NCBI GenBank assembly: GCA_016870915.1
Contig: VFZY01000004.1
Coordinates: forward strand, 1-64,000
Length of the DNA: 64,000 bases
From: Acidobacteriota bacterium
Lineage (GTDB): Bacteria > Acidobacteriota > Terriglobia > Bryobacterales > Bryobacteraceae
Direction: 5' to 3'
A program made the translations under genes and the position numbers. The notes beneath the pieces are model-generated. The model saw only the letters and a list, made by a program, of their open reading frames with translations, did no database searches and was not told the origin of the DNA. Position 1 is the first letter of the stretch; the number at the start of each line of letters is the position of its first letter. Positions 49,046 through 50,460 of the stretch are shown here, one piece after another.

Positions 49046-49087
49046 TTTTTCTGGAATGAATATTCTGATCCGGTGGATGATAGTGGC

Positions 49088-50125
49088 ATGAGAGGTTTGT
49101 TGCTGGGCGTGTGCCTGGCCGTTTCCGCCCTTGCCGCGAAGCCTGAAGACAAAGCCATTGCCGTTGGCGCGCAGGCCCCCGCATTCAGCGCGCCGGACCA
49201 GAACGGCGCCGTCCAATCGTTCGATACGCTCAAAGGAGCAAACGGCCTGGTGCTGCTTTTCCACCGCTCGGCCGACTGGTGACCCTACTGCAAGGCCCAG
49301 CTCGTGGAGCTGGAACAGCAGCGCGCCGAACTGGCGCGGCGCGGCTTCGGGGCCGCCGCCATCAGCTACGACACGCAGGGCGTGCTGAGGGCGTTCGCAG
49401 CGCGGCGCCAGATTTCCGTGCCCCTGCTCTCCGACCCTGACTCGGCGATCATCCGCGCCTTCGGCATCTTCAACGAAACCACGAAGCCCGGGGCCCTGGA
49501 CCATGGAGTGCCCTACCCGGGTCTCTTCTTCCTTGACGCCAAGGGCCGTGTCACCGCGCGGTACTTCGAGGAGCGTTACACGGACCGGTTCACCATCTCG
49601 AGCATCCTGCGCCGCCGCATGGGAGCCGCCGCGGCGATCCGGGCCGAACCGATTCAGGCGGCACGCCTCACGGCGACACCGCTCGCCAGCACGGCGATGC
49701 TCGCGCCGGGACAGCGAGTGACCCTGGAACTGGAGATTGCCATGCCGAAGGGGTTGCACGTCTACGCGCCCGGTGCGCCAGCGGACTACATCGCGCTTGA
49801 TCTTGCGCTTGATGCCTCGCCGCTTTGGAAAGCGCATCCCACGGAGTACCCGAAATCCCGGACCACAAAGATTGCCCGGGAACACGTTCCGGTGTTCGAA
49901 CGGACCTTCAACGTGGTGCGCGACGTCACAGTGTACCCCGACGCAAAGCTGCGCCTCGGCGCATCAACCTCCGATCTCACGGTAACGGGAAAGCTCCGGT
50001 ACCAGGCTTGTGACCGGAAGCAGTGTTTTCCGCCCGAGACGGTGCCGGTCGCGTGGAAATTGAGCGTCGGAATGTTCGACCGGGAGCGTGCTCCGGCGGA
50101 GTTCCGGCGGCAGGCAGGACGCTAG
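49088..50125 (+). CDS. Predicted selenoprotein: secreted redoxin fused to a DsbD-alpha-like domain (UGA at 49280 read as Sec)
   Basis: One frame of 345 codons is interrupted only by TGA 49280-49282. Signal peptide 1-17 (RGLLLGVCLAVSALAA), then a redoxin (AhpC/TSA-like) domain about 22-180. The TGA falls in S-A-D-W-[UGA]-P-Y-C; relatives have S-A-D-W-C-P-Y-C, so Sec replaces the first Cys, giving U65 and C68. Homologous text continues directly (KAQLVELEQQ; VPYPGLFFLDAKGRV). Residues about 190-330 resemble the DsbD N-terminal domain (MPKGLHVYAPG; YQACDRKQCFPPE with C308 and C313). A bSECIS-like stem follows at 49297-49313. Likely a periplasmic thiol/selenol redox enzyme. The alternative is a nonsense mutation, which would not explain the exact Cys position and stem. 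Confidence 0.85.
49297..49313 (+). promoter_or_regulatory. Candidate bacterial SECIS hairpin
   Basis: CCAGCTC (49297-49303) pairs perfectly with GAGCTGG (49307-49313), leaving loop GTG with G as the first base. The loop begins 21 nt after the UGA. Known bacterial SECIS elements have a short stem with a small loop carrying a G among its first two bases, about 16-37 nt after the UGA, so this fits. It lies within the coding region. Confidence 0.7.
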
Positions 50126-50241: not shown

Positions 50242-50460
50242 ATGGAAGTCAACCTGCCAGCCGACCTAACGCAGCAACTACAGACCGAAGTTGCGGCGGG
50301 CCGCTATTCCAGCGCCAGCACCCTGATCGAGCAAGCTCTTCGCCGCTTCTTGACCGAGCAGCAACGTGGCACGGAGAGACTGGAAGCCCTGCGCCGTATT
50401 GGTCAAGCCGTGGATGACGCGGGGCTGTATGAACACGTCGTTCTGCCTGACCACCAATGA
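50242..50460 (+). CDS. ParD-like ribbon-helix-helix antitoxin-type protein
   Basis: A 72-residue protein: MEVNLPADLTQQLQTEVAAG (beta strand and first helix), YSSASTLIEQALRRFLTEQQ (second helix), and a C-terminal acidic helix (RRIGQAVDDAGLYEH). This is the pattern of ParD/CopG-type antitoxins. AGGAG lies 6 nt before the ATG at 50242, fixing the start. No ParE-like toxin gene follows: the 78 bp to the next stop on the other strand contain none. Confidence 0.7.
   Translation: MEVNLPADLTQQLQTEVAAGRYSSASTLIEQALRRFLTEQQRGTERLEALRRIGQAVDDAGLYEHVVLPDHQ

Follow-up and report, generated by a model that had tools for sequence, protein, structure and literature searches.

Peroxiredoxin-like (Prx-like) and redoxin selenoproteins with a UxxC motif have been catalogued before, as is apparent from the sections of PMC13188914, PMC9312934 and PMC2398784 drawn on here. 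The Prx-like thiol:disulfide oxidoreductases (PF00578, UxxC/UxxU; PMC13188914, PMC9312934) combine an AhpC-TSA domain with Sec at the first position of UxxC, a bSECIS just downstream and the occurrence of Cys homologues, all of which, going by those sections, recur in the gene described below. Published representatives are WP_010940744.1 and HEU0032618.1, to which the present protein can be likened by domain and motif as given in the excerpted descriptions. In the excerpted tables of these two papers, the Sec domain stands alone and a fusion with a DsbD-alpha domain is not mentioned. Regarding the redoxin selenoproteins (PF08534, UxxC) together with Prx-like 3 and Unknown_3, the corresponding part of PMC2398784 describes UxxC redoxins of which some carry a fused Cys-bearing domain, and lists for Unknown_3 three conserved Cys including a CxxC. 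HEU0032618.1 and MBA3499694.1 are accessions of published Redoxin-family selenoproteins.

Reading frame, homologues and selenocysteine machinery

In the window (the whole stretch of 64,000 nucleotides that was analysed), positions 49088-50125 of the forward strand very probably constitute a genuine selenoprotein gene in which UGA 49280 is read as Sec. Its continuity has been computed directly: TGA 49280-49282 is the one stop codon that interrupts the frame between the ATG at 49088 and the TAG at 50123-50125, and read-through translation yields 345 amino acids with a single UGA as residue 65, lying in the motif SADW-U-PYC (residues 61-68). An earlier note on this DNA, made from the letters alone, had pointed to two open segments of one frame split by this TGA and to the text SADW-[TGA]-PYC around it, both of which are recovered in the 345-residue translation. 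It was also right that conventional calling would cut the gene in two, as table-11 calling returns pieces of 69 (49073-49282) and 273 amino acids (49304-50125), and that the protein continues beyond the UGA, since homology extends past this codon in related genes. Shortly 3' of the redoxin gene lies a ParD-type antitoxin gene (50242-50457, forward strand; PF03693, 26.1 bits) with no evident ParE toxin partner adjoining it.

Homology along the whole length has been found for about 40 genes across 61 related genomes. These 40 full-length homologues (window gene counted) share 30-47% identity and have TGA at the column of Sec65 in 38 cases and TGC in two. A named collection of 80 loci, nearly all labelled Acidobacteriota (Bryobacterales, Terriglobia, Vicinamibacteria, Holophagales, Thermoanaerobaculia), has 70 TGA, nine TGC and one TGT at this column. 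Merging both sets leaves 95 distinct homologues with 83 UGA and 12 Cys codons, which answers the earlier question of whether the UGA column is Cys in relatives; in a phylum-wide sample, 28 of 198 genomes contain a match (E<=1e-40). On a quick tree built without the Sec column and the stem columns, at least seven switches between Sec and Cys, counted on starred branches, are needed. Some records titled Gemmatimonadetes (L171) and Acidimicrobiia (L100, L112) carry the Acidobacteriota-type gene; VFZE01, the source of L100 and L112, appears to be identical with the assembly G031, which is placed in the window's family, and the record titles may be wrong. A shorter, separate redoxin family (L090-L093, from G035, G003, G039 and G034) has GYW-U-P[FY]C or GSW-U-PFC; its UGA occupies the same position and is followed by a hairpin, and its members apparently lack the fused domain.

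The source genome (6.6 Mb, 367 contigs) encodes the machinery that the earlier note had proposed to look for: a tRNA-Sec with anticodon UCA (70.7 bits; tRNA-SeC(tca) by ARAGORN) is accompanied by SelA (477.6 bits), SelB (378.5 bits) and SelD (361.9 bits), all above their curated cut-offs of 268, 242 and 125. The identification of codon 49280-49282 as Sec65 of WUPYC draws on this machinery and on the UGA/Cys column of the homologues. The SelD gene (G000:C318:938-1861, L078) has an in-frame UGA of its own within KAAGUASKLS, at the usual Sec position of SelD; judged from its sequence, SelD appears to be a second selenoprotein of this genome. In support of the Sec reading, strict thresholds yielded no match to SelA, SelB or tRNA-Sec in two genomes (G116 and G140), and both have the gene only as Cys copies. 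A further genome (G166) has SelA and SelB and holds one UGA copy (L180) and one Cys copy; its tRNA-Sec search at E<=1e-10 gave no match, a point against the Sec reading that may be ascribed either to an assembly gap or to a divergent tRNA-Sec.

The hairpin downstream of UGA 49280

The hairpin CCAGCTC-GTG-GAGCTGG (49297-49313, forward strand) has its stem at 49297-49303/49307-49313, and its loop begins 21 nt after the UGA, so that the 7-bp stem, the GUG loop and the spacing are as the earlier note had given them. It agrees with the bSECIS model in the part of PMC13188914 drawn on here, which allows a stem of 4-16 bp, a loop of 3-9 nt with G within the first two positions, a spacing of 16-37 nt and an MFE <= -7.5; the window hairpin has 7 bp, GUG, 21 nt and -10.0 kcal/mol. 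The earlier note had taken this hairpin as a signature of Sec insertion: it is indeed present, and was over-weighted as a lone clue, as its single-sequence fold is not significant. Folded alone, the 51-nt segment scores z = -0.66 and is equalled in stability by 45 of 200 shuffled sequences; such a hairpin, by itself, is not unusual for DNA this rich in GC. In addition, when the window was screened loosely for further open frames interrupted by a TGA within UxxC or CxxU, nine other places emerged, which look like chance frames. The clues from the single sequence are thus weak, and it is the comparative evidence that carries the case far beyond chance.

The selection acting on the hairpin has been computed from the alignment. 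Pair 21-31 of the stem joins the third base of a Gln codon to the first base of a Leu codon, and among the distinct rows of the 38 UGA genes it is GC in 22, AU in 14 and GU in one. The covariation score of 0.217 (0.121 when shuffled) is reached by none of 500 shuffles and also exceeds that of every slid version. In the 83 UGA genes, the two codons are CAG/CTG in 58, CAA/TTG in 21 and mixed in four. The five core stem pairs are intact in 82 of the 83 UGA genes as opposed to two of the 12 Cys genes, in which the hairpin has been lost. Synonymous-codon shuffling costs the UGA genes over half of the stability (-9.96 kcal/mol real, -4.15 shuffled) and leaves it almost unchanged in Cys genes (-1.74 and -1.68 kcal/mol). 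In 6.4 of seven independent pairs the stem follows the Sec/Cys state, never the opposite (median p 0.03), which is a moderate test since it is based on the quick tree. The putative bSECIS overlaps the codons of a QLVEL peptide. QLVEL or QLVQL is found in 82 of the 83 UGA forms, whereas the Cys forms vary at this site (QLADL, QLIQL, QLIEM, QMLEL and others); part of the protein conservation is therefore imposed by the RNA. In the proposed mechanism, the hairpin, 15-31 nt after UGA 49280, would recruit SelB with Sec-tRNA(Sec), and the UGA would consequently be read as Sec.

These data bear on three other accounts of the in-frame UGA. That a Cys codon has recently mutated to TGA here, in a pseudogene or through a sequencing error, has nothing in its favour beyond the prior odds that attach to any lone in-frame stop. 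The recurrence of this UGA in 83 of the 95 distinct homologues, the conservation of the frame on both sides and the compensatory codon changes that keep the hairpin make it extremely improbable, and sequencing error is in effect excluded because the UGA recurs in dozens of separately assembled genomes. A genome-wide reassignment of UGA to another amino acid, e.g. Trp, would likewise leave the frame open, as any residue read at TGA does. TGA is, however, the codon that most often closes a long frame in the window (18 out of 31 frames, not all of which are real genes), and because it ends so many of them it is an ordinary stop here too; together with the presence of tRNA-Sec, SelA, SelB and SelD and with Cys in the column of other homologues, this puts reassignment virtually out of the question. 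Sec insertion is in general incomplete and dependent on selenium, and the UGA could accordingly act as a regulated stop that yields mostly a truncated product of 64 residues and is read through only when selenium is plentiful. Such a piece would contain neither the UxxC nor the DsbD-alpha domain, and the part 3' of the UGA is conserved throughout, so that we consider a regulated stop quite improbable as well. Reading of the UGA as Sec in a full-length product remains our preferred account.

Domain architecture and a proposed electron relay

The domain make-up computed for the full-length product comprises two parts behind a possible signal peptide (MRGLLLGVCLAVSALAA, 49088-49138), which has been recognised by inspection only. 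Residues 26-157 (49163-49558) form an AhpC-TSA/Redoxin domain (PF00578, 96.4 bits, cut-off 26) that contains the U65-P-Y-C68 site, with the putative resolving Cys68 at 49289-49291. A confident model with a pLDDT of 92.7 has peroxiredoxins as its structural matches, AhpE (Z 20.9, 149 residues) and Bcp being the best. In the alignment with AhpE, Sec65 takes the place of the catalytic Thr, Cys68 pairs with the peroxidatic Cys, and Pro144 stands where AhpE has its catalytic Arg, going by the roles that these residues have in the family; the Thr of TxxC and the catalytic Arg that mark a peroxiredoxin proper are accordingly both replaced. P144 is invariant in 54 aligned homologues, as are C65, C68, C308 and C313. 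The pattern of Sec65, Cys68 and Pro144 is that of thioredoxin-type reductases with CxxC and a cis-Pro, and the model indicates a thioredoxin-type site within a peroxiredoxin fold.

Residues 205-318 (49700-50041) form a DsbD-alpha-like domain (PF11412), so that the redoxin reading of the earlier note holds for the PF00578 part and misses the C-terminal one. The window protein scores 24.6 bits, just under the cut-off of 25, and 26.7 bits in the genome search; the DsbD_N match has been found in all 54 homologues scanned (E<=0.001). Modelled alone, the domain has a pLDDT of 91.9 and a predicted immunoglobulin-like DsbD-alpha fold: the best matches in the fold search are the nDsbD structures 3pfu, 1l6p, 1jzd and 1vrs, and the top 12 are all DsbD-alpha or ScsB N-terminal domains (E 8.8e-6 to 2.6e-4). 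A search of solved structures by sequence with this domain gave no match at E<=1. Its Cys pair, C308-DRKQ-C313, lies at 50009-50026. Elsewhere in the genome (C25) there is a further DsbD-like gene, which has both DsbD_N and DsbD_TM parts.

We propose that the enzyme may be exported and act as a thiol:disulfide reductase (or peroxidase), with its own DsbD-alpha domain recharging the Sec. Following export, Sec65 would most likely attack an oxidised envelope substrate (a disulfide, sulfenate or peroxide) and then form a selenosulfide with Cys68. The Cys308/Cys313 pair of the fused domain would reduce Sec65 back, and the genome-encoded membrane DsbD system would in turn charge this pair. A relay from DsbD via Cys308/Cys313 and Sec65/Cys68 to the substrate, in one chain and widespread in Acidobacteriota, is a tentative reading that falls just short of being probable; it draws on the DsbD_N match, the DsbD-alpha fold, the four invariant Cys positions and the genomic DsbD-like gene. 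In E. coli, the alpha domain of DsbD passes electrons to thioredoxin-fold partners, and because of this analogy the direction from DsbD-alpha to Sec65 is the more likely one, although the domain might also accept electrons rather than donate them. The gene context offers no hint of a substrate or partner because no neighbour gene is conserved: among the 80 loci with flanks of up to 4 kb, no neighbour cluster occurs in more than six, and none is common to the window.

The selenoprotein might also work mainly as a peroxidase, with Sec65 or Cys68 reducing peroxides instead of disulfides. The peroxiredoxin fold, with AhpE and Bcp as the closest structures, and the strong PF00578 match speak for this function. 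As the catalytic Thr of AhpE has become Sec65 and the Arg an invariant Pro, in the pattern of a thioredoxin-type reductase, a mainly peroxidatic role seems rather unlikely, and the thiol:disulfide reductase is the reading we retain.

Relation to known systems

Under standard annotation these genes would be split at the UGA, and their active site would be lost. As no NCBIfam model reaches its cut-off with the window protein, the gene family is likely to be misannotated across Acidobacteriota. The nearest model, the SelL-related redox protein NF040769, describes a Sec-capable redoxin and matches residues 30-127; the window protein reaches 49.6 bits where the cut-off is 120, and NF040769 is without a fused domain. 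For the bSECIS, the family amounts to a natural experiment of unusual clarity, with at least seven Sec/Cys switches and a hairpin and forced peptide that relax in the Cys forms. It would further suggest that a major phylum of soil bacteria uses selenium in its cell envelope, with a built-in relay that can be tested.

The chemistry of Prx-like UxxC selenoproteins is already known, and the DsbD-alpha fusion is uncatalogued in NCBIfam and in the portions of the literature searched, where none describing a DsbD-fused selenoprotein was found, an absence that is no proof. With the 1-Cys peroxiredoxin AhpE, the protein shares its fold and differs at the peroxidatic site, where Sec65 and Pro144 stand in place of Thr and Arg. 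From Unknown_3 it is set apart, by the excerpted description alone, through a fused domain that is DsbD-alpha-like and has two invariant Cys in a CxxxxC. The N-terminal (alpha) domain of DsbD (PF11412) has the fold and a Cys pair after YQxC in common with it; in the window protein, the domain comes after a Sec redoxin in the chain instead of preceding a membrane transporter, and its Cys are spaced by four residues. If the proposed relay is true, the reducing half of an envelope thiol system and a selenoenzyme would here be united in one polypeptide.
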